Shown in pieces: positions 4,647-35,823 of a stretch of DNA of 35,968 bases. The position numbers and the translations under genes are program-made. Each line of letters begins with the position of its first letter. The stretch's first letter is position 1. The notes below the pieces were generated by a model. That model had not been told where the DNA came from, did not search any database, and was given only the letters and a program-made list of their open reading frames with translations. Source of the DNA: Saprospiraceae bacterium (GTDB taxonomy: Bacteria > Bacteroidota > Bacteroidia > Chitinophagales > Saprospiraceae); the NCBI GenBank assembly GCA_027486765.1, contig JAIXOO010000044.1, positions 1-35,968 on the forward strand, read 5' to 3'.

Positions 4647-4695
4647 GGTTCTTTTTTTAGTGGTTAAAAACTTTGGCCGCTCAATTTCCTGATCC

Positions 4696-7600: not shown

Positions 7601-10600
7601 GCACCATTCAAGTTTGGATCGGTATAAAAACTTGCAGAAATGCCTTTGGTGCCAAGCCCTGAAAAAGCGCTAAGCAATGGTTTTGGTTCAATCTGGATAG
7701 GGTCAGTCAAAAGCAGTGGATCGCTTAACAAAGATTCTATCAGCACTTGATCTGCTTGATTTGCTGCCGAAATCGTTTGTACGATCAATTGACGTACGAG
7801 TTGTGTTTGGAGGTAAGGTAAAAATGCTTGGATCAATAAGCCTCGTTTTTCATATACTTTATCCTCTCGGGCTTTTTCTGCTGCACGTTTTTGAATTTCA
7901 CTTAAGCCATCTGGGACAAGTGGCAATACCTCAAACAACTTACCATAATCAGCAGCTTCAAAAAAGCCTGCATTTGAGTTCGCATTCAGGGCCTGCTTTT
8001 GTAAGTATTTGGAAAAAAAGGCGCTGTTTTCAAGCTGCACCGCATCAAGCAATGTCGAAAATAGCATTTTTTGGTTAACGCTTAACTTGGAGTTGAATTT
8101 GGCTTTTAAAGCCATTTTTTGTGCATCGAGCAATATGCCTCGAAAGACCATCGTCTGTTCTTGCCGAACAGTATTGTAGTTCACTTTTTGAATGGCCATA
8201 TCTCCGGCAAAATCTGTTGCTTGCAATTGATGGTCAGGGTCAACTCCGCCTTGGACCACAGTCACTTCATTGGTTCCATCCAACATGGCCAATAAGCGAT
8301 TTACGACATTTGAAGGCAGCACTAAACCAAGTTTACTGCGCAGTTCATCATCAGGCAAAGCGGAAGGGTCATTGGGGATGACATGTTCATTTTGAATGGC
8401 TCTAATCCCCAATGCAATAGCCTTGGTAGTAGCCCAAAGTGCATCCTCATCAGGGCGGTATTTTCCACTTGCATCAAATTGATGCCGCAGTAAATAGTTG
8501 AGGTCCTGGATGTCAAAGCCACTGGCTTTGAGGGCGTCAAGCATTTCAACGAAACGAATCGTCTGACTGAAAGGAAAGTCGTTCTCTAACTGATCTAGTG
8601 GATCAGGGTGTAAGGATTTAAAAGGATCAAGTCCCGATAATTGTTTGAGTGAGAGCAGCTCCCCAATGTCCAGCTTGAGGGCTTTTGCCAATAAACCATG
8701 GCGGTACAACAACGAGACATGGGCTAAGGTCAGTGCTGCGGATTCAAGATCGAGGCCATTGTTTGACAAGATTTGATTGATTTCAGTAACACTAAGGCCT
8801 AAAGCTCCCTGAATAACCAGCAAATGATCTTTGAGTAATAAGTCCGGTTTGCTCAAATAAAGCCCCAATGGATCATCAAAAACTGGGTCGCTGCGCAGGG
8901 CACTCCTGCTGAGGAAATGCCGAGCGTAGAGTGGATTTTTGCCCTGGGTAGGGAGGTCAGTCCAAAGGCTGAGCAACTTGGAGAGGCTATTTTTGCCTAC
9001 GTTCATTTTTGTCTCCAAAGATCGAAGGTGGCTGAGGTAAATTAGTACCGTTAACAGCGGTTGTTTGGCTAGATGTTCGGCCTCAAACGGCGCATTTTTG
9101 GGCATAAAAGCCTGTAGCGCACGATCAGTATCGGCAATGCTCCAATTGAGTTTACGCCACAGTCTTACGAACAGGTTTATTTTAAGCAGGGCAAATCCAT
9201 CCACTTTATTCCCATTGGCGTATTGTAGTGTGGTTTTATCAAAATCACCAGCAGTACTGGTGTCAGCCAAAACCAGAATTTGATCAAAATCATTGTTTTG
9301 CAGGGCTGTGTTCAACCAATCGACGGCATCAAAGTCAGGAAAAGCTTTGCTCAAAAATTTTAGTTTCGCCACAATTCCATGCACTTCGTGCAGTACATCC
9401 CAGGCTGCTTTTGTGATGGCATCGAAGCGCGTTTGATCTGCTGGAGTCAAATCTTTCCGTTTTTTATCCAACAAATCTTCGTTGAGTTGATATGTAGCGA
9501 GGTGTTTTTTGTAAAACAGTACATCGTTGATCTCAATCCCCAATTTGTACAACACCACAAAAGCATTCAATTGAGGGTTGACAAAACCAGTGCGGACGAC
9601 CTCAAGCAATTCTTTGTAACTTATCCCCAAACGCCTGGAGAGCGCTTTGGCTGAATTCAGGTCAATGCGCTGCCCGCTGTCCGCGTCAATTGCCGAAGTT
9701 AGTGCTTGAGTTTCCCTCTCAAATCCATACAGTGTAAACCAATCATCCAAAGGATTTGGGTTGGTGAAAACCGCCAGTTCACTTGGCGAAATCCCTAAAG
9801 ATTCGATAAATATTGCCGCCCGATCATAGGATTGAAGGGGCTCAAAAAGGGCATCTGAGGAACGAAAACTTTCCAACAATTGCCACAGGGGTGTATCAAA
9901 ATAAGCACAAAATTGGCGCGCAGTTTCTAGCCAAAGGTCAAAGGGGAGATTCAGTGGGTAGCGAGCATTTTGCAAGGTTTTATACGCTTCGGGCTCAATG
10001 TATTGGGGTTCAGCAATGAGTTCACTGCTGGTAGCGTCGCCGGTATCATGGGCTGTATCCGCACCAAGGGAATGGTGAGCGACGTAGTATTCCAATATTT
10101 CGTTGACCAAATCAATTTGTGGCAATTCCGTATTGGTATTTTCACAAGTCAGGGGAATATTGGGAATATCCGGGCGGCGGCTGATCAAAATTTCATAAGG
10201 GGTAAGCGGGGTAATATCCCTATTTGGAACGGGTTCCAAAGGATGGGCAGCTTGCCAGCGTTGTTCAAACAAACCAAAGGCTTCTGTATCTTTAAACGGG
10301 TAGGGAGCGGAGCCGTGTTTGTTCTTCCAATCCTTCATGGCATTTTGCCAAACCTTTACCTCTGGATCTAAAAATTGCAACAAATCCACCAAATAAGCCG
10401 CCGGGCTGAGTACTGACCTACAGTGTTCACATTCGCAAAAATCCAGTGAGCCAAACAAACCTGCCATGTTTGGAAATTCGTTGATTAGTTTGGTTTTGGC
10501 ATCTTTACGAACTTCTGACGTGGCAGACATGGCAAAGATCGGTGCAGCATTGTCCAACTCCTTGGTAAGGGTGAAAATACTGGTGGTGACATTGCTTACC

Positions 10601-12684: not shown

Positions 12685-12901
12685 GGTTTGAGGTTTTTGG
12701 TCGTGGTGTGGAATGGGGTGATAAAAAATTTGCTATTAACAGTGGCATGCTGAATGCCCAAAATATAGTTGAAGTGCAGCAACCTTTGCCATAAGTGAGC
12801 CTTAGGCAGGGAAACTTTAGTTTGTAGTCTTTAATTGAAAAATTGGTTGTATTCATTGGGTTTAGTAGTTTATGTTAGACCATTCGATTGATAAGACAGG
12901 A

Positions 12902-15900
12902 CTATTCGATTTTTCCTCCTAGTTTTTTTACAATTGGTGAACAGTTGGAACAAGGTACACCTTGTTGTTGTCCTCCCCAGGATATACCCCAACGTATAAC
13001 AGTTGCACCCTGAGGTAAAGCATTTGCAATATTCACCTCTGCATGTTCTTTCCCTCCTACAACAGTGATTCCATGTTGCACCATATCCCGTCTTTGGACA
13101 CTACTCTCATTACCACCAGAAACGGAACCATATACTACTCGAGAACCATTTAATAATTGAACTTCAGCTAAAGCAACAGTAGTACTTCGTTGGGTTCTTG
13201 TTGCATCTCTACCACTTTTTACATCACTTGGAAACATAGGAGCTAAATCATGTATAGCTCTCGCTCCATCTCGTAAATCTCCTGGCCCTCTGAGACGATA
13301 ATCTACCCCTCCTCCTCTTGAAGTAGGTACACCTGGAGCATGCGATGTGTCTATTTTTGGTGCAGTGATAGGGGGAGCTGTTTTGGGTAAAGAAGGAACT
13401 GATACTCCTGCATTTGCCTTAGCGTTTGGTGATCTAGCACTAGAAGGAATTGTAATTCCTGTTCTACCTCCAAATGATAAATTCTTGGGATCATACGTTG
13501 GAGATCCACTTTGATAACCAGGTCCAGACGGTCTTGTTGGAACACTAAAAGTTGGTCTTGATGCTCTTGCGCCTGCCCAAGCGGCAAGCGCCGCCATAGC
13601 TTGAGCACTAAATTCTTGTCTTCCTCGGTCTTGTGCTGCCACAATTTGCGAATGAGGAGCTACCATTCCAACGCAACCATCGGGCGAACATACTAAATCG
13701 AGTTCCATAGGATCTCGATCTTTATGTACTTTTGGTTTAGGAGAATATTCCCATCTTTCTGATAATTGCAAATAACCTTTCAATCTATTTAATAATTCAC
13801 CCCTTTTTCCTAATTTATCATAGTCATACACTAGCCCATTTTGTTCGCTGAATTGATTATTTAACATCATTACTATTTGAGCAGTTGTCATTTTATTTAG
13901 AGCTTGTTCATTATATCGTTCTCCATCGGTCCCATTCATATCCTTAAATGATAAAAACCTATTGTTAACGTAACTATAAACATTTCCCCCATCCCCAATC
14001 CCAATCGGATCCGCACTCCCCCACCTTCCCAACCACGGCAAATAATACCTCGCCCCATGATATTCCAAGCCCGTCTCCTCATCCCGCTCCATCCCGGTAT
14101 ACCGATACCTTTTGGCCGCAGCTTTGATGCCTGCATTCCGGGCCTGATAGGCTGTCGTTCCATACGGATGGTATTCTTCATAACTGATCAGGGCGGCATC
14201 TCCATCCAGTTCCAGGCTTACTGAGCCCAGGTGGTTGCCCATTTGGTAGCGGATCAATCGGGCTGGGGTATCGGGGTCGACGCCCTGGGTGCGGGTTTCC
14301 AGCATCGCGATGCGCTGGGTGTCATCCATGATGTGCAGGGTTTGGCGCTCCAGGCCGCTGCTATCTTGGTACACTTCAAAATTGCCTCCTATATAAATCC
14401 GCTCGTCTTTTTTGCCGGGATTTACCCCGGCATTGGCGGCATTTTCGGTGATTTTACGCACCCGCTGCCCGCTGCCGTCGTAAACGTAGTAGGTCGTTTC
14501 GGGGCTGCTGCCGTCAACGCGGCGTTGTTTGGAAGTCGCTTGTAGTTCTTCTTTAAAAGTCCAGGCCATCAGTTGCAGGTGGGGCATTTTGCTCAGGTAC
14601 CCGTGTTGGGCGTGGTGGGGATACAGGTAGGTAGTATTGCCAATGGCGGTCGTTTTGAGGCGGTTGTTGGTGTTTTCGTAGGTATAGTTGCGCGTCCAGG
14701 AGCCATTGGCGCCTGCTTCGTGGCGTATTTGTTGGATGTTGCCTACGCTATCGTACTGGTAGTTTTGGTTGTAGTTGCGCATGGCCATGCTGTCGCCGCT
14801 GTTGTGGGAAAACAGCGCAATGGCATCGTTCCAATTGTCGCTGGAATCAAAATTGGGGGCATTGGTATTCTGCTCGCGGCCACTGGCCTGGATGAGGCGA
14901 TAAAGCGCATCGTAGGTGTATTCGTTTGTGCCTTTGATGATTTGGTTGTTGAAAAATCGTTCTGGAATGGCCTGATCGGCAATTTGGGTAATGTTGCCCG
15001 TGGGGTCGTAAGTGTAGTTCAAATCTTGAATGACTTCGCCGCCATTTTTGGTGCTGCGCAGTTGAGTGAGGCGAAAGGTCGTGGGGTCATAGCCGTACTG
15101 GGTCTTTACACCATTGCCATACACGATCTGGGTGCGTTGACCTTTGGCATCGTAATTGATGTTTTTGACGAAATCGGTAGTGGTGTTGCCTTCGCGGAGG
15201 CTTACTTTTTCCAGTAGCCCTGCGGGATTGAAGCTCGGTATGCTCACCTTGCCGTCGGGAGTTGTTTGGCGCAGTGGGCGGTTCAGCGCGTCGTATTCCA
15301 CGCTGGTGCTGAAGGTGTAATCTTCTCCATCCAACAAACTGTCGGGATTGACGATGTCCCAATGGGGCGTATTTTTGTAGTCTTTGCCAAAAATGCGGGT
15401 GCTTTTCAGCAAATTGCCTTTAAAATCATGGATTTCGGAAAGAACTTTCCCGGCGCTGTCGTACAAAATGGCAGCTTTCCCACGCAGGTTCCGCTGTTTG
15501 TCGTTCGGCTGCCCTTCGCCGTACACGATACGCTCGTAGCAATGATTCAAGGGCGTAAGGCCATCACCACCTTTGACGATTTTTTTGATGGGTCGGTGCA
15601 GGTCATCGTATACAAAAGAAAATTCGTGTTGGCGTTCGTCCCAGGTTTTGACCGGGTTACTCAAGGCATTGTTCAACATCCAGCGTTTGCCCGCATCCAT
15701 ACTCGTTTGTGCTACACGATGGCCCAACAGGTCGTAGCGCCAGGCCATCACCACATTGCCCCGCGCATCGGTAATGGATAGGGCGTTGCCTTCCAGGTCC
15801 AATTCCGAAGTGGTGTAGGAAAATTCCTCCTGGATGTTGCCATTGGCGTCCTCCCAACGGTTGTGGTCAATGCCCAAAGTTGGGCGGCCGAGCGTATCGG

Positions 15901-18900
15901 TGACCATACAGGAAGGAGTATTATGGTGCATTGCCGATTTTTGAGCGGCCTTTTTATCCGGGTTTGAGTCGGCTAAGGCCAGTCTTTGTTGGTACCAGGC
16001 GCTGTCTTTCACCGTATCATTGCCGTCGTAATGGAATTCCTTCCAGGCATCAAAGACTGCTTTGGTAAAGGTGCCATCGGGCAATTCGGTTCTGACGTTG
16101 CGGCCAGCACCATCGTAATACAGCATTGGACTTACGCCTTGTTCCACCCATGCGGGGTCATCCTCATAAGCTGGGGTGGTGGAAAAATAGGGCTCGTATT
16201 GTTTGATGGGCTTACCTTTGTTGTTCAGTACCGTACGTCCGTTGCCTACCCAGCGCAATTGATTGCCCGTATCAATAGTTGTTCCATCGGGCAATTGAAT
16301 GATGCCGGGCTCTGCCTGTACTTTTTTCATGGCCACTTTGCCCAGCCCGTCGCTGTATTCAAAACTGATTTGTAGTGGGCTGTTGTTGGGGTTTTGTTTG
16401 GTATGTTGCTCGCGGGCGATGCTGGCTACTACGCTGGGCTGGCGGGTAAAATCGTACACCATACGCGCACTGGCATTGCCCAGGAGATCCCGCGCAAGTT
16501 GTTGCAACAAGATAGTATTGGCTACGATTGGCGCTACCGCATTGGCAATGCTGAAAAAATCGGCGATATTTTGGGCCTCATTTCCTGCGGTTTGTTCGGT
16601 AAATCCGAGCAGATTGTCCCCTTCTTCACCTTGCAAAGGATTGTTGAGCGCTTTGCCCTCCACTGCCGCTGCTTTCACCATACCCAATTCATCCACGATG
16701 ACGGCTGAAATGTTGTCATTGATGTCGCGCATAATCTCGGGCGATAGGGTGCGAAAATTGAACCTCAATACCTGGCTTTCATTGCCTATTGCATCTACGC
16801 TGCGTTGCATGAAGAAATTCAAGGGGTCGTAAAAAACTTGAGTAACGCTGTCGGATGGATCGGTATAAGCGACTGGGGCAAAAAAGCGGGCTTTGACCGC
16901 CTCAAAAGTTTCCTCATTTCTTCGATGTTGCACGGTTCCCGATTGAATCCACCAATTGACCTCATCTTTTAAAAATTTCCCAGCCCGCATATCGGCCTCG
17001 GTCACATCAAACTGAGCCGAAAAAGGACTGGGTTTAAAAATATCGTCGATGAGTTTGGGCGTATAGGCCAATTGGTATGCTTCGAAAGGAATGCTTCGGA
17101 CGGCTTGTTGGCCATCAGGTAGGGGACCGGTCAATTCAGCGTTGTAAAATTTGGTTTTGACCTGTTCGATCAGGCGTTTTTGTGCCCTTCCATCGGCACT
17201 TTTTTCAAAGTACTGTATTTCAGAAATAGCTTCGATTTTGCCTTTAAATTCTTGAACTGTAAAGATCGCTTTGTCCGGTTTTAATCCTGTCAGTTCGTAG
17301 GTTTGGGTTTGCCAACCTTTGCGCAGGTAATAATTTGCTGGAAAAGCAATGTCTTTGGTAAAAGCGTTTTTTGTGTAGGTGATCCATTGCTTTTGCTGTC
17401 CCTTGCGGGCAGCAACTTTGGCCTTTTGTACCGTTGCGGAGTCAGTTGCTGCATCTTTCAGCAGGTCTTCGGTTTGGAGCCGAGGATACACCACCGATAC
17501 GGCCTCCAGTACATTGCCCAATTCATCAGTTTCAATATTAAGGGTATGCGCAATGCGCGGGTCTTCGGGATTGCGCTCGTAGGTATAGGTGATGGCTTCG
17601 CTTTCTTTGACGATAAAGGCGGCGTAGCGGTTTTTACCCCGCGTTTGCAGGAGCTGGATTTCGCAGTTGTGGGTGACCACCGAATAGGGCGCCTGTTCGG
17701 TTTGCCGTACTTCCTGTTGAAATTTCAGGAAATCAGGATCGGCGTCGGTGTATTTTTTGGCCAATTTTTGGTCGGTTATGCGTTTTTCCGCATCCAGTCC
17801 GAACACCTCTTGGCGCAAGGTCATGCCTTTACAGGCGCGCAGGGCTTCCCGCCATTCCTCAGCACTCAAGGCATTGATGTCAAAACCCGCTAGATTATTG
17901 GCTGCCAGAAGTACCGCATCAGGCAGCTCATATTCAATGGGGGTGGCAGTATAGCCGTGTTTTTTATATTCCTCGTACCAGTATTCTTGTTTGAACTGGT
18001 TCAAAATCCGCTCTTTGTCCAAAAATGCCCCGGTATGCAACCAGGTTTTGGTCAGTACTGGCGGCTGATGGTGCTCCTCGGGAACGACATTTTCTGCGCC
18101 CGTTTTAGAAAATACGTCAAAATACTCGGTATCCGTTTGATCTACTCGTCCGAAGCCGCGAAATTCGCGTTCGGCATGGTCGTAATAGCCGTGGTGGTAG
18201 CTGTATTGGGCAGTGAAGCGCACATTGGTGACGGATTCGGTCACGATGGTTTTGGCGACTACCTGTACCGGAAAGGCCAGTTTGGTAATCCAGGGCGTAC
18301 CGGCGAGTTTGTCTTGCAAATAAAACCAGGTCGAGCTTTTGTATTCTACCTCGGTTTTTTTGCCCATGCCATTTTCATGGCTAACCATCAAGTGTGGTTT
18401 TTTGCCCCCCATCAAATCCATGTAGCGCATGGGAGACTGGCTATATACCTGCAATTCGGACGACCACACGATGCAGGCAGTGCCATTGCCCAAGAGATCG
18501 GTAACGGCTATTTTATTGGGTTGTTCTGTGGGGAAGAACGGTTCTATTTCGGTGGCCTCGCTCCAGGCATTTCCGCTGAGGTTGAGGTAGGCTTTGAATT
18601 TGTTTTTGCCCAAATAAATGATATCGCTGGGCCCCGTACCGCTGATGTCTGCCAATTGCAAATAGGCGGGGTTGAACAATTCGGGATGGTCAAACCAGGG
18701 CGAATTACTCATTGTGACTTTGGCGCTGAAGCGGCCATAACCCAGGTTGGCCCAATAACAAACCTCGCCATTGCGGATGCGTACGATGTCGGTGAGGCCG
18801 TCGCCACTCATGTCGGCCAGAAAAATGCGTTGTTCGGAGTCGGCAAAAATGATGGCTGGGCCTTGTTCTTCATCGTAGGGCTTAACGGCGAGTTCGGGGG

Positions 18901-20662
18901 AATCGTAGCCAATTTTGCCTTCGTTTTCCCACCACCAAAAAGCGCCTTGATCGGAGAGTACCACTTCAGGTTTGCCATCGCCATTGAGATCGAGCATGCG
19001 CACGTTGGGATCACGCAGATCGAGGTTCAGGTTTTTGACAAAAGCCACGAAGGGCTGCCATTCGCCTTCATCACTGAGTTCAAAATAGCCCTGTACGCCC
19101 GGCGAATTGACGACAATTTGCTTCAAACCATCGGCATTGAGGTCTTGGAGTTGCAACACGCCATTGCCCATCCCTGTGAAAGAGGGCTTGGGCATCACCA
19201 ATTGCGCGTGGCTGAATTGCGCATTGCCCTGGGCGTCTTCCCCAAGATTGGATTTATAGTACCAAGCATTGGCTTGCTCGCTCAAAATGCCGTTGATGCC
19301 TTCGTTGTACAAATCTACCCATTGGTAATTGCCGGACAGTCCAGTGGGGGCGTGTACCAGGTTTTCGACGCTTACGGTTTTGACCTCGGTGTTCCAATGC
19401 AACCATTGGTAGTCAAAACTCATTTTGGGCAGGGCCTTCATAGAATACGTTCCATCCGCTTTGCGCACATAACCTTGCTGAACAATGCTCATCAGATAGG
19501 TACACTCGGCAGGGCGATCGCTTTTGATTTTAAGCTGATCGGCAGGTAGGTAATCAAAATCCAGCGAACGCACCAGGGTAGGTGAATTGCCATTCAATTC
19601 AGGAAAAGTATGAAACAACAATACCCGGCTGCAAAGGCGGTAAGTGCGCATCTCGAAGCCGGAGCGGTAAGCAGAGAAGGCATCGGAGCGCGATGACCAT
19701 TTGGTGTCTTCCGCTGGTTTGGGTTTGAGGGCATCGTGGTCGCCGTAGTCGAATACCACTTCAAAATGGTGGGGTTCGTTCAGGGGCAATTGCAGCTCGA
19801 AGGGCTTGCTATCATCGATGTAATAAGGCGTGGCATTGCCGTATTTGACGCTTTTAAGGTGCAGGTTGGAAAATGGGGCATTGCCGTTGAAGCGATTTTT
19901 TTCGTTGACCTCGTTTTTGACATTTTCCTGGTCTTCAGCCTTATACCTATACCAAATCCAACTGCCTTTGTCGTCAAAGCTGAATTCAGGCAACCAAGTA
20001 AAAATTTTAGCAGGGTCCTTGGGATCGGCAATGCGACAATTGCTGCTGTAGCCAAAAAAGGTGGTGACGTTGTCCCGGCTGGTGACCCGCCAGTAATAAC
20101 CTTTATCTGGATGATGGATGCGTTCAATCCGCGCAAAGCTGCCTTCGATTCTGGGGCGATAGGTTCTAATGGTATAGCCGTCTTTTGTTGCTTGTTTGAC
20201 CTTCCAGCTTTCGCCCGCTCGGGTCAAATGAGGCACCAATTCTTCCACGCCGGAAAACATAAAACTGTCTTCCTGATCGATCGGCTCCACATCGTTGGTA
20301 TCAAAATAGCGGGGCAATTTTTTATCTGTGCGTCTTTGGATGGAGGTAGTGCTTAAGTCCCAACCAATGCCAAATAAGCTGTTCCCCGTGCCGGAATTAT
20401 AAGACAAAGCCATTTCTGGATTGAATCCATTGCGATTGGGCGAAAAGGGTAGGGGAATGCTGAAGGATGCCGTTCCATTGGCCGCATTGACCTGAAATTT
20501 TTCGTCGATGCCTTTGATGGCACCGCCGCCTTTGGGTAACGATATTTGCGGAATTTGGATGGCGTTGGATTCAGTGGCGCGGTCTTGAGTAAGGGCGCTT
20601 AGGGAAGTGTCTGATTCATTCTTTGGCTTAGGCGTTTTTTCCGAGTTAACATGGGGGGGCAT
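12902..20662 (-). CDS. TcB-TcC fusion toxin (SpvB / FG-GAP / Rhs) with C-terminal deaminase-like domain
   Basis: Encodes 2586 residues. An SpvB-type N-terminus begins near residue 41 (SLPKGGGAIKGIDEKFQVNAANG). FG-GAP/VCBS-like repeats lie at about 505-730 (DLNADG, DLNGDGKPEVV, DMSGDGLTDIV, DISGTG), forming the TcB beta-propeller that docks on TcA. YD/Rhs repeats run from about 1560 to 2170, and the Rhs core end is at about 2180-2240 (RYTGMERDEETGLEYHGARYY, then D2218-PIG and NVYSYVNN). In TcB-TcC the Rhs shell encloses the C-terminal toxin, which is cut free inside the shell near this motif. The last ~340 residues are the variable effector: H2540-A-E2542 and P2570-C2571-S-N-C2574 match the zinc-binding and catalytic pattern of the cytidine-deaminase fold. 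No signal peptide is seen. Codons 2-4 hold a C7 run. A 217-bp gap separates the gene from TcA, and it holds no immunity gene. Confidence 0.92.
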   Translation of the reverse strand: MPPHVNSEKTPKPKNESDTSLSALTQDRATESNAIQIPQISLPKGGGAIKGIDEKFQVNAANGTASFSIPLPFSPNRNGFNPEMALSYNSGTGNSLFGIGWDLSTTSIQRRTDKKLPRYFDTNDVEPIDQEDSFMFSGVEELVPHLTRAGESWKVKQATKDGYTIRTYRPRIEGSFARIERIHHPDKGYYWRVTSRDNVTTFFGYSSNCRIADPKDPAKIFTWLPEFSFDDKGSWIWYRYKAEDQENVKNEVNEKNRFNGNAPFSNLHLKSVKYGNATPYYIDDSKPFELQLPLNEPHHFEVVFDYGDHDALKPKPAEDTKWSSRSDAFSAYRSGFEMRTYRLCSRVLLFHTFPELNGNSPTLVRSLDFDYLPADQLKIKSDRPAECTYLMSIVQQGYVRKADGTYSMKALPKMSFDYQWLHWNTEVKTVSVENLVHAPTGLSGNYQWVDLYNEGINGILSEQANAWYYKSNLGEDAQGNAQFSHAQLVMPKPSFTGMGNGVLQLQDLNADGLKQIVVNSPGVQGYFELSDEGEWQPFVAFVKNLNLDLRDPNVRMLDLNGDGKPEVVLSDQGAFWWWENEGKIGYDSPELAVKPYDEEQGPAIIFADSEQRIFLADMSGDGLTDIVRIRNGEVCYWANLGYGRFSAKVTMSNSPWFDHPELFNPAYLQLADISGTGPSDIIYLGKNKFKAYLNLSGNAWSEATEIEPFFPTEQPNKIAVTDLLGNGTACIVWSSELQVYSQSPMRYMDLMGGKKPHLMVSHENGMGKKTEVEYKSSTWFYLQDKLAGTPWITKLAFPVQVVAKTIVTESVTNVRFTAQYSYHHGYYDHAEREFRGFGRVDQTDTEYFDVFSKTGAENVVPEEHHQPPVLTKTWLHTGAFLDKERILNQFKQEYWYEEYKKHGYTATPIEYELPDAVLLAANNLAGFDINALSAEEWREALRACKGMTLRQEVFGLDAEKRITDQKLAKKYTDADPDFLKFQQEVRQTEQAPYSVVTHNCEIQLLQTRGKNRYAAFIVKESEAITYTYERNPEDPRIAHTLNIETDELGNVLEAVSVVYPRLQTEDLLKDAATDSATVQKAKVAARKGQQKQWITYTKNAFTKDIAFPANYYLRKGWQTQTYELTGLKPDKAIFTVQEFKGKIEAISEIQYFEKSADGRAQKRLIEQVKTKFYNAELTGPLPDGQQAVRSIPFEAYQLAYTPKLIDDIFKPSPFSAQFDVTEADMRAGKFLKDEVNWWIQSGTVQHRRNEETFEAVKARFFAPVAYTDPSDSVTQVFYDPLNFFMQRSVDAIGNESQVLRFNFRTLSPEIMRDINDNISAVIVDELGMVKAAAVEGKALNNPLQGEEGDNLLGFTEQTAGNEAQNIADFFSIANAVAPIVANTILLQQLARDLLGNASARMVYDFTRQPSVVASIAREQHTKQNPNNSPLQISFEYSDGLGKVAMKKVQAEPGIIQLPDGTTIDTGNQLRWVGNGRTVLNNKGKPIKQYEPYFSTTPAYEDDPAWVEQGVSPMLYYDGAGRNVRTELPDGTFTKAVFDAWKEFHYDGNDTVKDSAWYQQRLALADSNPDKKAAQKSAMHHNTPSCMVTDTLGRPTLGIDHNRWEDANGNIQEEFSYTTSELDLEGNALSITDARGNVVMAWRYDLLGHRVAQTSMDAGKRWMLNNALSNPVKTWDERQHEFSFVYDDLHRPIKKIVKGGDGLTPLNHCYERIVYGEGQPNDKQRNLRGKAAILYDSAGKVLSEIHDFKGNLLKSTRIFGKDYKNTPHWDIVNPDSLLDGEDYTFSTSVEYDALNRPLRQTTPDGKVSIPSFNPAGLLEKVSLREGNTTTDFVKNINYDAKGQRTQIVYGNGVKTQYGYDPTTFRLTQLRSTKNGGEVIQDLNYTYDPTGNITQIADQAIPERFFNNQIIKGTNEYTYDALYRLIQASGREQNTNAPNFDSSDNWNDAIALFSHNSGDSMAMRNYNQNYQYDSVGNIQQIRHEAGANGSWTRNYTYENTNNRLKTTAIGNTTYLYPHHAQHGYLSKMPHLQLMAWTFKEELQATSKQRRVDGSSPETTYYVYDGSGQRVRKITENAANAGVNPGKKDERIYIGGNFEVYQDSSGLERQTLHIMDDTQRIAMLETRTQGVDPDTPARLIRYQMGNHLGSVSLELDGDAALISYEEYHPYGTTAYQARNAGIKAAAKRYRYTGMERDEETGLEYHGARYYLPWLGRWGSADPIGIGDGGNVYSYVNNRFLSFKDMNGTDGERYNEQALNKMTTAQIVMMLNNQFSEQNGLVYDYDKLGKRGELLNRLKGYLQLSERWEYSPKPKVHKDRDPMELDLVCSPDGCVGMVAPHSQIVAAQDRGRQEFSAQAMAALAAWAGARASRPTFSVPTRPSGPGYQSGSPTYDPKNLSFGGRTGITIPSSARSPNAKANAGVSVPSLPKTAPPITAPKIDTSHAPGVPTSRGGGVDYRLRGPGDLRDGARAIHDLAPMFPSDVKSGRDATRTQRSTTVALAEVQLLNGSRVVYGSVSGGNESSVQRRDMVQHGITVVGGKEHAEVNIANALPQGATVIRWGISWGGQQQGVPCSNCSPIVKKLGGKIE

Positions 20663-21158: not shown

Positions 21159-21330
21159 CACGGCAACAACAATTTTATACGTTTGCCCAGGGGAACAACC
21201 ATTTTTGTGATTTATTTAAACGACGTGAAACATCCGAAAATGCACCTCCAATCAAAATTTTATCCCCATTGTTCTTTATTTTGTCGCTGCGCTAGCTAAA
21301 ATGCTAAAACCCGATAAAAACAGCCTCTTT

Positions 21331-22065
21331 ATGCTCAAACTGCCCTTTACCCACATTCACCCCGACATCGATACGTCTGAATTGGTGCTCGTGCCAGGAG
21401 GTGCTTTTATGATGGGGAGAGAGAAATATGATGACGAAAAGCCCATTCACAAAGTGACCGTACCCACCCTCGCCATTGGCAAATTTCCAGTGACCCAGGA
21501 GCTGTGGACTGCGGTAATGGGCAATAACCCTGCTTACTTTATTGGCCCCAAACGCCCGGTGGAGCAAGTTTCCTGGAAGGACACGCAGTTGTTTTTAAAA
21601 AAAATCAACCTGGATTCCCGTTTAAAGCCAGGCCAGGGCTTCCGACTGCCTACCGAGGCGGAATGGGAATACGCCGCCCGAGGAGGAAAAGACCCAGACC
21701 AACGCCCTGCCTATACCTATGCCGGAGGCGATAAACTGGATGAAGTAGGTTGGTACATAGACAATAGCCATAACGAGACGAAACCGGTTGGCCTTAAGTT
21801 GCCCAATGAGCTAGGAATATGCGACCTGAGTGGCAATGTATTGGAATGGTGTGAAGATACCTGGCATGGCAATTACAAGGGCGCACCGCAAGATGGATCG
21901 GCTTGGGTAGATAAAAAAAAGGGTGTTTCTCATGTTTTGCGCGGCGGCACCTGGAACAACCGTCCGCCACGTTGCCGCTCCTCGTTACGCTACTCCATCG
22001 CCCCCGCTGATCTCAACTCCGACATCGGTTTTCGGGTAGTCTTGTTTTCCGCTTCAGGCAGTTGA
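21331..22065 (+). CDS. FGE/SUMF1-fold (C-type-lectin-like) protein 1 with DGR-like variable end
   Basis: Encodes 244 residues from ATG 21331. An in-frame ATG at 21301 adds ten residues, but the next paralog aligns with MLKL..F.HI at 21331. Family motifs in order: SELVLVPGGAFMMG, FPVTQELWTAVMG, RLPTEAEWEYAARGG, GNVLEWCEDTWHGNY, VLRGGTW and GFRVVL. This is the formylglycine-generating-enzyme fold. The cysteine pair of catalytic FGEs is not apparent and only one Cys (in RCRSS) lies in that region, so I infer a ligand-binding rather than oxidase role. There is no signal peptide, so it is probably cytoplasmic. It is close in sequence to the third FGE protein (26021), including a shared KDPDQRPAY segment and a shared downstream tail. 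Confidence 0.85.
   Translation: MLKLPFTHIHPDIDTSELVLVPGGAFMMGREKYDDEKPIHKVTVPTLAIGKFPVTQELWTAVMGNNPAYFIGPKRPVEQVSWKDTQLFLKKINLDSRLKPGQGFRLPTEAEWEYAARGGKDPDQRPAYTYAGGDKLDEVGWYIDNSHNETKPVGLKLPNELGICDLSGNVLEWCEDTWHGNYKGAPQDGSAWVDKKKGVSHVLRGGTWNNRPPRCRSSLRYSIAPADLNSDIGFRVVLFSASGS
21934..22050 (+). other. DGR-like variable region of FGE protein 1
   Basis: A segment of 39 codons from VLRGG to LFS. Its scaffold bases (GTTTTGCGCGGCGG, TGCCGCTCCTCG, CGGTTTTCG, TTGTTTTCC) are identical to those in the third FGE gene, while the intervening codons differ, mostly at positions 1 and 2. This is the position of the variable region in CLec-fold DGR target proteins. No template or reverse transcriptase is in the window. 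Confidence 0.45.
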
Positions 22066-22088
22066 GCTGGCCCATCGCAATAGGTCCC

Positions 22089-22154
22089 GTGAGCAAAAAA
22101 TAAAATAGCCAGAAAAAGTGGGAACGAAGCAGCGCAAGTCGAGCGAGGGACGAG
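22089..22154 (+). repeat. shared tail repeat, copy 1 (after FGE gene 1)
   Basis: A 66-bp segment beginning GTGAGCAAAAAA and ending GTCGAGCGAGGGACGAG, starting 23 bp after the stop. It is nearly the same as 26869-26937 after the third FGE gene (a few substitutions and about 3 bp of gaps). It is not found after the second FGE gene. It is noncoding here. Confidence 0.8.
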
Positions 22155-22248
22155 AATAGGTTTAAAATTGTTTCAGTTAGAGTGTGGATGTAACAGAAAT
22201 TTGAATGCTCATAGACTTTTAATTAAATTTGCATATAAGCTAACACAA

Positions 22249-22968
22249 ATGTTGAAACTTTCATTTGCACACATATTACCTAATTGCAGCACTTCTGAGC
22301 TAGTCTTTGTCAAAGGTGGAATATTTCGAATGGGAGGTATTGCTTCTTGGGAAAAACCACTACATTTGGTGAAGGTTTCATCCTTTTTTATTGGTAAATA
22401 CCCGGTGACTCAAGAGTTGTGGGAATTCATTATGGGTAATAATCCTTCATTGTTTTGTGGACACAGCCGCCCTGTGGAACAAGTATCATGGGAGGATACT
22501 CAGGAGTTTTTTTCTATGCTAAATAAAAGTATCCGATTAAAAAAAGGTCAAAAATTTCGCCTTCCAAGTGAAGCAGAATGGGAATATGCAGCCTCTGGTG
22601 GGGAAAGATCAAATTCTTATTATTTTTCAGGTGGAAACAAACTAAGCGAGCTTGGGTGGTATTCAGAGAATAGTTTAAACGAAACAAAGCCAGTGGGGCT
22701 GAAACTATCAAATGAATTGGGAATTTTTGATATGAGTGGAAATGTTTGGGAATGGTGTGACGATAAATGGAGTGGTAATTATCAAAAAAATGCGCTAAAA
22801 AACGGTTCATCAAAATTTGATGAAAAAAAAAGCGCCTACAGGGTTTTGCGTGGAGGGAGTTGGGATGATTACCCACAAAGTTGTAGACCTACCTGTCGTT
22901 TTAATGACCATCCTCAATTTATGAATCACAATGTTGGCTTTCGTGTGGTGTTATTTCTAAATGAATAG
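22249..22968 (+). CDS. FGE/SUMF1-fold protein 2
   Basis: Encodes 239 residues from ATG 22249, chosen because MLKLSFAHILPN aligns with the start of the first FGE protein; an upstream ATG at 22168 would add 27 residues of unrelated text. Motifs: SELVFVKGGIFRMGG, YPVTQELWEFIMG, RLPSEAEWEYAASGG, GNVWEWCDDKWSGNY, VLRGGSWDD and GFRVVL. It lacks the KDPDQRPAY insert seen in the other two. Its codons are strikingly AT-rich compared with the neighbouring FGE genes, and the scaffold codons of its C-terminal segment differ synonymously from theirs, so it does not share the recent homogenisation. The catalytic cysteine pair is not apparent. It is probably a ligand-binding homolog that arrived or diverged separately. 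Confidence 0.85.
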   Translation: MLKLSFAHILPNCSTSELVFVKGGIFRMGGIASWEKPLHLVKVSSFFIGKYPVTQELWEFIMGNNPSLFCGHSRPVEQVSWEDTQEFFSMLNKSIRLKKGQKFRLPSEAEWEYAASGGERSNSYYFSGGNKLSELGWYSENSLNETKPVGLKLSNELGIFDMSGNVWEWCDDKWSGNYQKNALKNGSSKFDEKKSAYRVLRGGSWDDYPQSCRPTCRFNDHPQFMNHNVGFRVVLFLNE

Positions 22969-23131
22969 TTTTAACCTGTTAAAGAATATGTTATAATTTT
23001 TGCACTAATGTAAAGATTATTGCTCAGGGTCTATCTGAGGCAAGAATATTTTAGTACTTTAGACCTGTTCCACTTGTGGGAATAGGTTCGCGTTTAAAAA
23101 AAAATAATTATAAATCAATAAGTTGTAAGAA

Positions 23132-26008
23132 ATGGACAAACTTGATCTAAACATCATAACTCGATTTAAACTTAATAAACTCGATTCAGTTGACCATGTT
23201 CGCCGTAGAAATAATAGTTATTCAGTAAATGAGGAAGGAAAACTAGTGGCATTAAGCTTGTCTGAAAGCTATTTACAAAAATTGATAATTGGTGAAGAAG
23301 GATTCCATCTAGAGCATTTATATCTGGCTGGAAATCAAGAATTAACTCATGTTGAGTTTACTGGTTCGTTTCCCAACTTAGTTCATCTTTATTTAAACAA
23401 TTGTAAATTAAACCGCATTATCATTCCAGCTGGATTAAGTAGCCTCCGGCAAGCATATTTTCAAAACAACCAATTAATAGAGCTAACCTTTGAAGGAGAT
23501 TGCCCCGAATTACAATTCCTAGATCTAAGCAAGAATCAAATGCAAAGGTTTTCTTTGCCTTCAGGTTTTAGTCGTTTAGCCTATTTGTATTTGAGTGATA
23601 ATAGGTTAAAGGAGTTAATTTTCGATACTTTATCTGGGTTAGAAATTTTACATTTAAAAGGGAACCAACTGGATGAACTACCAACCAACTTCCTTGCACT
23701 TAGTAAATTAGAGACTTTGTACCTTTCCGGAAATCCACTTTCCAATATTCCTCCTGACGTAATTGGAAGTGGTGACATGCACAACTCAGCGAGTACCGTT
23801 TTAGCCTATTTAAAATCCATCCGAGGCAAAATAACCCAATATCTTCATGAGGCAAAATTGATTTTAATAGGAAATCCAGAGGTAGGTAAAAGTTCGATTC
23901 GAATCAAATTGCAAGACCCTACAGCTGATTTACCCACTCAAGATGAACGCACTCCAGGATTGATCGTCGAAAGATATTTTTTAAATCAATTACCTGTACA
24001 GTTGACAAATCTAGAAAATCCGATCGACTACCAGTTGAATATTTGGGATTTTGGTGGCCAAGGTCGATACCGCGAAATTCAGCAATTGTTCTGTAGCCGC
24101 AAGTCACTATATCTATTTGTGACTTCATATGATGACACCCCAGTAAAGGAAGATTACATTGGACTGGAATATTGGCTCTCTATGGTCAATGCTTACAGTT
24201 ATGATCAAGAACAAAATCGGCCGAGCCCAGTGATATATGTACTGAATAAAATTGATTGCAAGGATGAAGGAATCGATGAAGTACAGAGCCGAAAAGCGTT
24301 CAGTAACCTGACCAAATTTGTTAAAATCAGTTGTACTGAATACCTGAATTTTGATGTGCTAATCGGATATCTTAGAGAAGTTTTACCGTCGGTAAGCAAA
24401 GATATTTTTAGTAATGCCTATAGCCAAGAGTGGTTCCGTGTCAAAGAGCAATTAGAAAAAAAGGCGGAACATAATAATCACATTGATTATGTAGATTATT
24501 GGGGAATTTGTAAGGCGGAAGGTTTAGATGAAGAGCAAGCAAAAGCCTGGTTGACCATTTTAGACCGCATTGGTAGCGTCATTTATTTTGGAGACAATAA
24601 GGATCTGAATAACTGGATTGTTCTAAATCCTATTTGGGTGAAAGATGCCATTTGTAATGTCATTGATAACCCTTTGGTGACAGATGAGGGGATCTTGAAA
24701 GAAGAATTTTTTGATGCAATATGGAAACAATACCCTGAAAAATTGGAAAGGCGTAATCTGGTGAAATTGATGTTGGCCTATAAGTTGGCATATCCAATCA
24801 AACTAAAAGGTAAGGAGGTATATGTTGTCCCTTCGGCGCTTTTCAACAGACCTAAACCAACCATAGAGGATTACCCACATTTGCAACAAAAGGCCAATCT
24901 TCAGTTTGAATTTCATTTTGATCCATTTATACCCGCAGGGATCGTTAACAAGTTGATGGTCAGTCTAAATCGAAATATTTACAACAATTTGATTTGGGGC
25001 AATGGATGTATTCTTCATGAGCCTGTTTCGAATACATTTGTGGAATTAAGAGAAGACTGGTCCAAACGCACTATACAAGTGGATATCTTTGGGAATGATG
25101 CCCAGGCTTTTTATGAAATTATCGCGGTAACCTTGAATGTAGTCACTGAAGAAATAAAATCCACTAGGTTTTTGCAGCACCTAACATTTACGGAGTGGAT
25201 GTTTTACAAAGATAAATTTCATAAAAGGAAAGATTTAGAAGATTTTGGAGTTTATCCCTGGAGTAAATTAGAGGTTAAAACTGACGGACATAAACCAAAA
25301 CCAAATTCTATGCACGGTATCGAAAAAGAAATCAAAGGCTTGTCAGATGCATTGGATCTAATCATCGACAAGAAAAATTATTTTGAAACTGAGTTTCAAA
25401 AAACTTACGACGCTGATAAAAAGTATACCCTAAAGCTTCAAATCAAGGATTTGGAAACCGACATTGAAGCATATCGAACCAAAATTCGGGGAAAAGAGCA
25501 GTCCATTCATGGGTTTGAAAACTATGAAGGAAGTAAGGCCAAGCTTGATGTTTTACTGGAAAAAGCGGAGCAAATCAGTCAAGACATCAGCCGGATGGAA
25601 ACGAAATTGGATGCAGGCTTCGATGCTGTCCTTACCCAACTCAGTGCCCAAGACCAGCAACTTATCGCCATTTTGGATACCTCACAAAGCACCCGCACAG
25701 AGTTGGCGCAATATTTTCACGATCTTGACCAGAAGCCTACCAATGAGTACGAACTGGAAATCATCATCCAGCGCATCAACTCCATGATTGGGGAACACTT
25801 CAGTAATTTACCAGAAGAACTGGCCCAAAAATTAAAACTACTCAATAGCAAATCAGCCGATTACACCGATGTAAAAGGTAAGTTCAAGCTCAAGATTCCC
25901 ATCATCCCGGCTATTCTGGAATACGAAAAAGAAGTCAATTGGGATTTGCGCAACGTAGCCAAACAAATCTGGACGGATTTAAAAGCAGGCAAAATTTTCC
26001 TGAAATAA
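23132..26008 (+). CDS. LRR-Roc-COR GTPase with helical conflict-system tail
   Basis: Encodes 958 residues. Leucine-rich repeats run from about residue 36 to 212 (LEHLYLAGNQ, LQFLDLSKNQ, LAYLYLSDNRL, LEILHLKGNQL). The Roc GTPase follows at about 241-430, with P-loop GNPEVGKSS (247-255), switch DFGGQ (306-310) and NKID (372-375), so the nucleotide site is complete. A COR domain occupies about 430-700. Residues 730-782 form a helical hairpin of the K..ETEFQKTYDADKKYTLKLQIKDLE type, and the last ~45 residues (KFKLKIPIIPAILEYEKEV...) form a module I associate with bacterial STAND/CHAT conflict proteins (from memory). Roco proteins are GTP-controlled dimers; LRRs sense ligands. There is no signal peptide or membrane segment. 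The stop is 12 bp before the TTG start of the third FGE gene, so the two are co-transcribed. Confidence 0.9.
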   Translation: MDKLDLNIITRFKLNKLDSVDHVRRRNNSYSVNEEGKLVALSLSESYLQKLIIGEEGFHLEHLYLAGNQELTHVEFTGSFPNLVHLYLNNCKLNRIIIPAGLSSLRQAYFQNNQLIELTFEGDCPELQFLDLSKNQMQRFSLPSGFSRLAYLYLSDNRLKELIFDTLSGLEILHLKGNQLDELPTNFLALSKLETLYLSGNPLSNIPPDVIGSGDMHNSASTVLAYLKSIRGKITQYLHEAKLILIGNPEVGKSSIRIKLQDPTADLPTQDERTPGLIVERYFLNQLPVQLTNLENPIDYQLNIWDFGGQGRYREIQQLFCSRKSLYLFVTSYDDTPVKEDYIGLEYWLSMVNAYSYDQEQNRPSPVIYVLNKIDCKDEGIDEVQSRKAFSNLTKFVKISCTEYLNFDVLIGYLREVLPSVSKDIFSNAYSQEWFRVKEQLEKKAEHNNHIDYVDYWGICKAEGLDEEQAKAWLTILDRIGSVIYFGDNKDLNNWIVLNPIWVKDAICNVIDNPLVTDEGILKEEFFDAIWKQYPEKLERRNLVKLMLAYKLAYPIKLKGKEVYVVPSALFNRPKPTIEDYPHLQQKANLQFEFHFDPFIPAGIVNKLMVSLNRNIYNNLIWGNGCILHEPVSNTFVELREDWSKRTIQVDIFGNDAQAFYEIIAVTLNVVTEEIKSTRFLQHLTFTEWMFYKDKFHKRKDLEDFGVYPWSKLEVKTDGHKPKPNSMHGIEKEIKGLSDALDLIIDKKNYFETEFQKTYDADKKYTLKLQIKDLETDIEAYRTKIRGKEQSIHGFENYEGSKAKLDVLLEKAEQISQDISRMETKLDAGFDAVLTQLSAQDQQLIAILDTSQSTRTELAQYFHDLDQKPTNEYELEIIIQRINSMIGEHFSNLPEELAQKLKLLNSKSADYTDVKGKFKLKIPIIPAILEYEKEVNWDLRNVAKQIWTDLKAGKIFLK

Positions 26009-26020
26009 AGCCAAAGCACC

Positions 26021-26872
26021 TTGGAAAAACGCCAACGCCAACATTTTCCAGATGGTTCTTTCTTCGACTTGATCCTAATCGAAGCAGGTCACTTCATGAT
26101 GGGTAGCAATGAAGAAGAGAGAGAACAACCCATCCACAAGGTTCAACTTTCCGATTTCTACCTCTCCCAACACCCCGTCACCCAAGCCCTGTGGCTTGCA
26201 GTAGTTGGAGGCGAAAATCCAGCTCATTTCCCAGGCCTCCGGCGCCCCATCGAAAGCGTCAGTTGGTACGATGCCGCTGCCTTCTGCAATCGTCTCAATG
26301 AAATGGGCGGTTATCCCGCCGTGTACTATACCGATGTGGAGTTTACCCAGCCATTGGACATAGAAACCGCAAAGAAGGTAGATTACCCCAACACCATCGA
26401 TATTTTTATGAAACCGGAAAAGATCGGCTACTGCTTGCCTTCCGAAGCCCAATGGGAATACGCCGCCCGGGGTGGCAAAGACCCCGACCAGCGCCCCGCC
26501 TACAAATACGCTGGCGGAGATAAGCTGGACGAAGTAGGCTGGTACGGTGACAATAGCCACCGTGAAACCAAGCCGGTTGGCATCAAACTCTCGAATGAGC
26601 TGGGTTTGTACGATATGAGCGGAAATGTGTATGAATGGTGCGAAGACCAATGGCATGACAGCTATGAAGATGCTACAACTGATGGATCAGCCTGGTTCGG
26701 TCTTGAGCGGGATAAATTCCAGGTTTTGCGCGGCGGACACGGACCCGACTCAAATCCTCAAGATTGCCGCTCCTCGTCCCGCTCCTACAGCGAGCCCACT
26801 AGTCGCCACAGTGTTTTCGGTTTTCGAGTGTTGTTTTCCCTGCCAGATAGTTCTCCATCCAATGGACAGTGA
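26021..26872 (+). CDS. FGE/SUMF1-fold protein 3, paired with the Roco GTPase, DGR-like variable end
   Basis: Encodes 283 residues from a TTG start; no nearer ATG precedes the conserved FDLILIEAGHFMMGSNEEE segment. Motifs: HPVTQALWLAVVGG, SWYDAAAFCNRLNEMGGYPAVYY, CLPSEAQWEYAARGG, GNVYEWCEDQWHDSY, VLRGGHG, CRSSSR and GFRVLFS. The fold is FGE/CLec; the oxidase cysteine pair is not apparent. Translation probably depends on that of the upstream Roco gene, given the 12-bp gap and TTG start. This suggests that the two products act together, with the FGE-fold protein as a sensor or substrate for the GTPase; this is inference. Protein text in the central part is close to FGE protein 1, but the DNA there shows many synonymous differences. 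Confidence 0.88.
   Translation: MEKRQRQHFPDGSFFDLILIEAGHFMMGSNEEEREQPIHKVQLSDFYLSQHPVTQALWLAVVGGENPAHFPGLRRPIESVSWYDAAAFCNRLNEMGGYPAVYYTDVEFTQPLDIETAKKVDYPNTIDIFMKPEKIGYCLPSEAQWEYAARGGKDPDQRPAYKYAGGDKLDEVGWYGDNSHRETKPVGIKLSNELGLYDMSGNVYEWCEDQWHDSYEDATTDGSAWFGLERDKFQVLRGGHGPDSNPQDCRSSSRSYSEPTSRHSVFGFRVLFSLPDSSPSNGQ
26723..26839 (+). other. DGR-like variable region of FGE protein 3
   Basis: 39 codons from VLRGG to LFS, the same length as the segment in FGE gene 1. Relative to that copy there is one extra codon before CRSS and one fewer near the end. In the 14 codons between CRSS and GFR, I count 18 base differences, 14 of them at codon positions 1 or 2. Confidence 0.45.
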
Positions 26873-26937
26873 GCAAAAAAGAAAAACAGCCAGACAGGAA
26901 ATGGGAACGAAGCAGCACTAGTCGAGCGAGGGACGAG
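26869..26937 (+). repeat. shared tail repeat, copy 2 (after FGE gene 3)
   Basis: A 69-bp copy of the tail at 22089-22154. It begins at the last codons and stop of FGE gene 3 (TGA at 26870-26872) and ends GTCGAGCGAGGGACGAG. Its position just after the variable segment is the same in both genes. Confidence 0.8.
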
Positions 26938-32820: not shown

Positions 32821-33037
32821 TCGTCTGATCAATAAAATGATAAGCTTTTCTGGGCCAACCTTGAGCTGGCTGACTGCTATTCATAGGGCAATTTACGAAA
32901 AAACGTAAAAGCAGCTTTAGTGCTGCCCAATCAGAATCTAAAACCAAATTAAATTACCCTCAAATGACTCAATTGCTTATTTTTCCACACGATGTTGTTT
33001 TACGTTTTTCGGCAAAATCGCTACGGATATAAGAAGA

Positions 33038-33100
33038 ATCCCTACGAATTCTCGATGGCATTAGCAGATTTACTCCTACAACCCCAACTTTGAAGCATCA
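33038..33100 (+). repeat. 63-bp upstream repeat, copy 1 (before the kinase gene)
   Basis: Matches 35744-35806 at 62 of 63 positions by eye (one T/C difference). It ends 10 bp before the kinase start codon. CAACTTTG near its end is a 7-of-8 match to TAnnTTTG, with TTA about 21 bp upstream, so the repeat probably contains the promoter. Confidence 0.85.
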
Positions 33101-33110
33101 ATAAAGCAAT

Positions 33111-35707: not shown

Positions 35708-35743
35708 TACGGATTATGGAAAAATGCCACGAATAACAGACAA

Positions 35744-35806
35744 ATCCCTACGAATTCTCGATGGCATTAGCAGATTTACCCCTACAACCCCAACTTTGAA
35801 GCATCA
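35744..35806 (+). repeat. 63-bp upstream repeat, copy 2
   Basis: Matches 33038-33100 with one difference. It ends 17 bp before the start codon at 35824. Confidence 0.85.
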
Positions 35807-35823
35807 TTAAAATACAAGTTGCT

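Follow-up and report, generated by a model that had tools for sequence, protein, structure and literature searches.

DGRs that pair a reverse transcriptase (RT) gene with an HRDC gene and act on FGE-fold targets have been described in Treponema denticola (the TvpA family), where several targets occur per genome, the HRDC gene overlaps the RT gene by 47 bp, and some isolates have targets but neither RT nor template repeat (TR), a state read as leftovers (PMC4891356). A second close relative in organisation is Thiohalocapsa PB-PSB1, a multicellular bacterium with CLec/FGE sensors in putative conflict systems, where loci are broken by mobile elements, targets occur without a TR in the assembly, and diversity within the population was demonstrated (PMC10907252). 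As far as the accessible text of these two reports goes, leftover targets of HRDC-type DGRs and broken, trans-served loci are thus already known. In BPP-1, mutagenesis is at adenines, the variable repeat (VR) has a 3' recognition region, and an element is required just past the end of the TR/VR homology (PMC3240598, PMC12875486). How the mutated cDNA locates and enters its target is incompletely understood, according to those parts of the recent BPP-1 work that we draw on (PMC12875486). A Haliscomenobacter element is named in the portion of PMC3521204 available to us. The genome of H. hydrossis DSM 1100, listed under the same genus as the genome studied here, contains a DGR (L110) with an nSTAND-FGE target, an HRDC gene, an RT gene and a TR in a row.

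The window analysed here, a stretch of 35,968 nucleotides, is one contig (C242) of a 7.72 Mb Saprospiraceae draft genome (514 contigs, completeness 99.98%). It resembles the Treponema system in having FGE-fold targets, several per genome, and this genome likewise has an HRDC gene that overlaps an RT gene, here by 44 bp. It differs in belonging to another phylum, and no inverted TR-flank element was found in the main text of PMC4891356. It shares with Thiohalocapsa the sensor type, the damage by mobile elements and the targets lacking an assembled TR. We consider it probable that the two VRs of the window belong to an HRDC-accompanied DGR of a particular RT clade, which acted in trans on FGE-fold sensor genes and has since left them orphaned.

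Organisation of the window

A GTPase gene of LRR-Roc-COR (ROCO) type, whose C-terminal region is long (23132..26008, forward strand; Pfam Roc, COR-A, COR-B and LRR), is flanked by three FGE-sulfatase genes on the same strand. Gene 1 (21301..22065; PF03781, E 1.6e-47), of the FGE-sulfatase/C-type-lectin fold, is 85% identical to a gene on a H. hydrossis plasmid (NC_015512.1, contig C3), and gene 3 (26021..26872; PF03781, E 1.1e-45) lies directly beyond the GTPase gene. Both look like DGR targets, and in both the Pfam FGE-sulfatase domain reaches the C-terminus, with an in-frame VR of 39 codons at that end: VR1 at 21934..22050 (forward strand, variable codons up to 22035) and VR3 at 26723..26839 (forward strand). 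The link between FGE and the C-type-lectin fold is taken from the literature (e.g. the consulted part of PMC8195603). Gene 2 (22168..22968, forward strand; assigned by Pfam), whose listed reading frame starts at TTG with an ATG at 22249, has neither the scaffold nor the downstream box described below, and serves as an internal control.

A similar arrangement is seen on contig C99, where three FGE genes surround a gene that occupies a similar place to the GTPase gene and whose 3' end has 69.9% DNA identity to the GTPase gene 3' end, the likeness being one of 3' end DNA. FGE paralogs gave 22 matches in this genome. On the minus strand of the window, Tc toxin complex-like genes adjoin the FGE cluster (1251-20662; TcA TcB-binding domain, VRP1, SpvB/TcdB and a deaminase-like C-terminus).

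The codon-position and adenine footprint

VR1 and VR3 have GTTTTGCGCGGCGG, TGCCGCTCCTCG and TCGGTTTTCG in common, exactly, so that the two 39-codon segments on a shared scaffold which a sequence-only reading of this DNA had proposed are borne out, as is the synonymous divergence that it saw upstream. Aligned without gaps over the 34 codons that start at TGC and run as far as the GFR motif, the two VRs differ at 32, 41 and 26% of codon positions 1, 2 and 3, compared with 34, 24 and 60% in the gene bodies (196 codons; Fisher p=0.0096). The earlier count, which placed 14 of 18 differences at first or second positions, therefore had the direction right, and the signal from this pair alone is moderate. 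VR3 is one codon longer upstream of the TGC codon; for this length difference the earlier suggestion of different templates is plausible, because sub-scaffolds can be read from the VR columns within the class.

Comparison between species gives a sharper contrast. When gene 1 is set against the H. hydrossis plasmid gene, differences at positions 1, 2 and 3 number 25, 18 and 70 in the body (210 codons) and 10, 11 and 4 in the VR (34 codons; Fisher p=1.4e-5), with 13 of the 14 changed VR codons non-synonymous, in a comparison whose VR orthology is unsure since the plasmid counterpart resembles a fusion. This plasmid gene (L111, at about 6300-7700) seems to join the 5' part of gene 1 to what surrounds gene 3 on its 3' side, as would result from a recombination that removed the genes in between. 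A C99 copy and one H. hydrossis gene also show the contrast between body and VR (p=8.5e-5), and when copy C99b is compared with two H. hydrossis members of the class (L114 and L116), 6% of third positions have changed in the VR, the figures for the bodies being 63% and 48%. Across the nine-member class, 13 of 36 pairs lie below p=0.05 without correction and 23 do not; none of these 13 pairs includes L113, which has diverged furthest.

The second component of the footprint concerns adenine, and was counted in the eight VRs of the scaffold, i.e. the class without L113. Of 102 VR columns, 55 are near-invariant and none of these is an A, whereas near-invariant body columns include 51 A among 199 (p=1.5e-6); third positions make up 20 of the 55 near-invariant columns in VRs versus 24 of the 199 in bodies. 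Randomisation of every A in the template explains both the held third positions and the A-free scaffold. Six control FGE genes from the same genome lack this pattern, with none of 25 near-invariant VR columns at third positions and two A, and in gene 2 only 3 of 14 codons for the same residue are identical to the scaffold, which is thus not shared. When the assembly was searched with the scaffold TGCCGCTCC..CG..CC..CGGTTTTCG, at up to 3 mismatches, four places were found: VR1, VR3 and two on C99. We conclude that 21934-22050 and 26723-26839 carry a strong but indirect DGR footprint, read from codon positions and adenine columns since no TR was found for a direct A-to-N comparison.

A textbook case is provided by a second orphan class (L167), three tandem FGE genes of H. 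hydrossis (C1:1534700-1539000) which show a near-perfect DGR footprint: third positions change by 0-3% in the VRs, where the bodies show 37-48% (p 2e-6 to 6e-6). The TGAGC box described below is present, and BLAST and profile searches of this 4-contig genome found no TR for the class.

A truncated reverse transcriptase and the search for a template

One RT match was obtained in the genome, on contig C295, in the order FGE gene, HRDC gene (E 4.5e-16), RT, the overlap of 44 nt between the latter two being given by the ORF coordinates; the accessory gene expected of this DGR type is thus in place. Alignment with related RTs shows that the YMDD and IGNLTSQ motifs are kept, the latter presumably the label of a DGR enzyme. 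The same alignment shows that about the last 30 residues, after KTAFLAEELVRG, are missing, and beyond the end of the gene lies the remnant of an IS200-like transposase (E 1.9e-4, just under the curated cut-off). With its C-terminus lost, the function of this RT is doubtful. In a tree of 28 RTs it falls inside a clade (support 100/98) whose TR/VR pairs show the inverted flank, and so groups with RTs that have adjoining TR/VR pairs. Several relatives have their TR downstream of the RT, at a distance of no more than about 500 nt (L065 to L068, L071), and others have it before the RT (L074, L080). Scans of the whole C295 contig, by an A-tolerant ungapped score and for AAY codons, found no TR. The reverse loss is seen at another locus (L257, G099 C18), where a TR and a VR at 3602-4416 are accompanied by a truncated HRDC gene, with no RT match between them: the template is kept and the RT is gone.

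The search for a template was extended to the whole assembly. The scaffold pattern returned only the four VRs already named (VR1, VR3 and two on C99) and no TR. A profile was built from 15 VR-type and 4 TR sequences; tried on DGR loci and whole genomes that had not gone into it, it found the TR in 20 of 20 and 4 of 4, respectively. In this genome, where 150 of 1145 first-look candidates were scored, it gave 15 matches and no TR: 13 lie at known FGE genes, and two (C335, C340) are at chance level and have no A-rich stretch. In H. hydrossis (150 of 1276 candidates scored) 44 matches were examined and no TR for the window class was among them, the only TR, at C1:5459860, having another scaffold. 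These fractions mean that the absence of a TR is not absolute. BLAST with VR1 and with the second orphan class gave nothing but FGE genes above noise. The A-tolerant and AAY-codon scans of 15 stretches of the genome and the window found no TR, and a pattern of two AAC-rich blocks, a search of phage records and of viral contigs with one exact pattern, and an Rfam scan of the window were each without match. A pattern made from a predicted flank, which fits the LAL class of H. hydrossis but neither the window class nor C295, matched three VR flanks that were already known, 11 or 12 near-identical places which are copies beside other RT genes, and further single places at 3 mismatches. At one further locus (L266, G005 C99) a TR-like repeat with a TR-type flank (AGCTCATAAG...) has only 6 AAY codons and is possibly a decayed template.

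The proposal of template-directed homing into a CLec/FGE fold thus stands with respect to held third positions, an A-free scaffold and a DGR-type RT with HRDC gene; a working cassette is what the assembly lacks, as the RT is truncated, and the A-rich template sought in the genome was not found by scaffold pattern, profile or BLAST. VR1 and VR3 look like orphaned or trans-served targets.

A box downstream of the variable repeat, which in related DGRs mirrors the template flank

Another observation concerns the DNA 3' of the VRs, which in all nine members of the class contains TGAGC followed by A-rich DNA, 42-68 nt past the GFR codons. In the window this box is CCCGTGAGCAAAAAA, in non-coding DNA after VR1 (22086..22100, forward strand), and ACAGTGAGCAAAAAA, overlapping the stop codon of gene 3 after VR3 (26866..26880, forward strand; identified by flank comparison). 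Its form is CCCRTGAGC in eight class VRs and ACAGTGAGC in VR3. It also follows three of three VRs of the second orphan class, three of five LAL-class VRs (at +41) and the C295 VR. TGAGC starting at +38..+70 after GFR occurs in 6 of 17 FGE genes of this genome (chance 3.3% per stretch), namely VR1, VR3, the three C99 genes and the C295 VR; one of the C99 genes (L031:4558) has the box with the scaffold absent. In H. hydrossis, TGAGC at box distance is found in 13 of 32 FGE genes, and 2 of the 13 are outside all orphan classes. These two genes and L031:4558 count against the reading favoured below.

What the box may correspond to is indicated by related DGRs that possess both repeats, in which the reverse complement of the TR flank sits at the place corresponding to 22086..22100. 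Past the homology the TR typically continues AGCTCA... and the VR AGTT...; from 24-43 nt after GFR, the VR flank of the clade loci is the reverse complement of the continuation of their own TR, and for 15 of 18 pairs TGAGC or TAAGC lies inside this inverted match. When the two flanks are scored by their longest such match, 18 of 18 pairs, from 16 clade loci, reach 11-25; each VR fits its own TR better than any other of 23 TRs, the foreign ones reaching at most 16. Direct-orientation matches score 4-7. Outside the clade, the scores are 5-7 for eight pairs and no higher than 10 for 46 distinct viral-contig pairs (mean 6.8, with 6.2 for foreign pairs), so that none of these 54 pairs reaches 11. 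Since the flank varies between loci and both sides change together, template and target covary.

The 18 of 18 come from the very loci in which the rule was discovered; the one held-out pair, at L257, has an inverted-flank score of 16 against at most 10 for foreign TRs, and its VR differs from its TR at 13 positions, all A. One locus, L079 (score 7), was in a first list of the clade, for which the count is 18 of 19 pairs; the later tree puts it on a long branch outside, and it is counted there among the eight. Two loci without a usable TR/VR pair (L070 and L081) were left out. The viral-contig set comprised 68 loci, of which 67 were scanned, 61 had a TR/VR pair and 46 had distinct flanks. In the RT tree the 16 loci fall into a single clade (100/98), which also holds the C295 RT and L070 and, going by record titles, spans Bacteroidota, Lentisphaerota, Cloacimonadota, Calditrichota and Verrucomicrobiota. 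At VR1, VR3 and the C295 VR the box is present with its partner TR missing from the assembly. The inverted-flank rule was not described in the literature that we searched, taken largely without subscription papers, and a template-target pairing signal in an RT clade is apparently undescribed so far.

The box is reminiscent of BPP-1 in its position just past the homology, and is unlike it in that BPP-1 has a self-contained DNA stem-loop after the VR, whereas the clade flank is complementary to the flank of its own TR. An ordinary hairpin or terminator was considered for the box and rejected, as folding of the DNA was no better than that of shuffles (z 0.95 for VR1, 1.53 for VR3 and 1.43 for C295). 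A scan for perfect stems of at least 7 bp with loops of 3-5 nt found none in 18 clade VR flanks; the same scan, finding merely 2 in 46 viral-contig DGRs, is not a sensitive test. Remote FGE genes in three genomes (G026, G054 and G023) were tried as targets of the cassettes in those genomes and rejected, since they mismatch the TR at 35-50 positions, of which 4-17 are at A. They have no box at the usual distance and speak neither for nor against the rule; one remote case, in L250, proved to be an A-rich TR belonging to another type. More FGE genes with a downstream TGAGC box were noted at L264 (G004 C23) and L260 to L262 (G099), and are candidates for remote or orphaned targets.

A proposed mechanism of target recognition

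We think that the box would act by pairing with the 3' flank of the TR transcript and so mark the target. Downstream of the VR, the sense strand would pair with a transcript that carries this flank; lacking the inverted copy, the TR is no such target. An RNA:DNA stem of this kind would stand in for the self-contained DNA stem-loop and would tell target from template. Pairing may serve to recruit the complex alone, or also to prime cDNA at a nick; the cDNA might even be primed from a nick at TGAGC and then fold back onto the VR. That the whole RT clade finds its target by such base pairing in trans, between the TR-transcript 3' flank (typically AGCTCA...) and its reverse complement downstream of the VR (...TGAGCT), is a proposal to which we give an even chance. 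If true, orphaned VRs that keep the box would record the flank of the lost template, which for the window class would begin GCTCACGGG. A testable recognition rule would result, by which remote or orphaned targets could be identified even where the template is lacking.

Origin of the variable repeats

Of the possible explanations, we favour one where a C295-type DGR wrote VR1 and VR3, so that the genome would once have had, or the population would still have, a working core of FGE target, HRDC gene, RT and TR. At C295 the RT is now truncated and no TR was found, and this leaves VR1, VR3 and their two C99 counterparts orphaned. In one lineage at least, homing would postdate the divergence from H. 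hydrossis.

The closest competitor to this orphaning is a DGR that is still active. Its TR and an intact RT would then reside on a plasmid, in DNA that escaped assembly or in other cells of the population, with C295 a disrupted copy. The assembly is indeed a draft of 514 contigs, and Thiohalocapsa PB-PSB1 offers a precedent in which targets without an assembled TR proved to have an intact locus in long reads (parts consulted of PMC10907252). The C99b scaffold is, moreover, nearly identical to those of L114 and L116 across species, which suggests recent rewriting. The completeness of 99.98% speaks against missing DNA, however, as does the fact that H. hydrossis, in 4 contigs, likewise yielded no TR for the window class, and we regard an active element as unlikely, though deserving of some weight.

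Two further explanations are very improbable. Diversifying selection with gene conversion among FGE paralogs would need no retroelement, and many such paralogs exist (the 22 matches), with L111 looking recombinant. However, selection on amino acids neither holds third positions below the divergence of the bodies nor purges A from a scaffold, and control FGE paralogs are without such a footprint. Nor do we find it credible, to any greater degree, that another DGR of this organism group, such as the C1 type of H. hydrossis, wrote the VRs in trans and that the box is accidental. That DGR (L110) does have its RT, HRDC gene, target and TR side by side, but between its TR and the five VRs of the class in H. 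hydrossis there are 41-49 differences over 99 positions, and only 18-22 of these fall at A. Its scaffold is another one, its own VR flank is without the box or an inverted match, and its RT lies outside the box clade. Orphaned targets of a C295-type DGR thus remain our preferred reading.

The sensor genes and their surroundings

The position of the LRR-Roc-COR gene between FGE genes (as assigned by Pfam) links these to an NTPase switch, as in FGE/FGS-sensor conflict systems. The FGE proteins of the window may be variable ligand-binding sensors upstream of the ROCO GTPase switch. A variable binder coupled to a switch has been proposed for FGS-NTPase conflict systems (PMC8195603, PMC7159879), and DAP-like proteins are described with variable effectors, FGS included, 11 paralogs of them in H. 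hydrossis (PMC8195603), as far as the consulted parts of these papers extend. If it applies here, the recognition rule proposed above would explain why these filamentous bacteria have many hypervariable FGE genes and few working cassettes.

Elsewhere in the window, around other genes, dispersed repeats of 92 and 109 nt were noted (33014-33105 and 35720-35811; 27683, 28367 and 34743).
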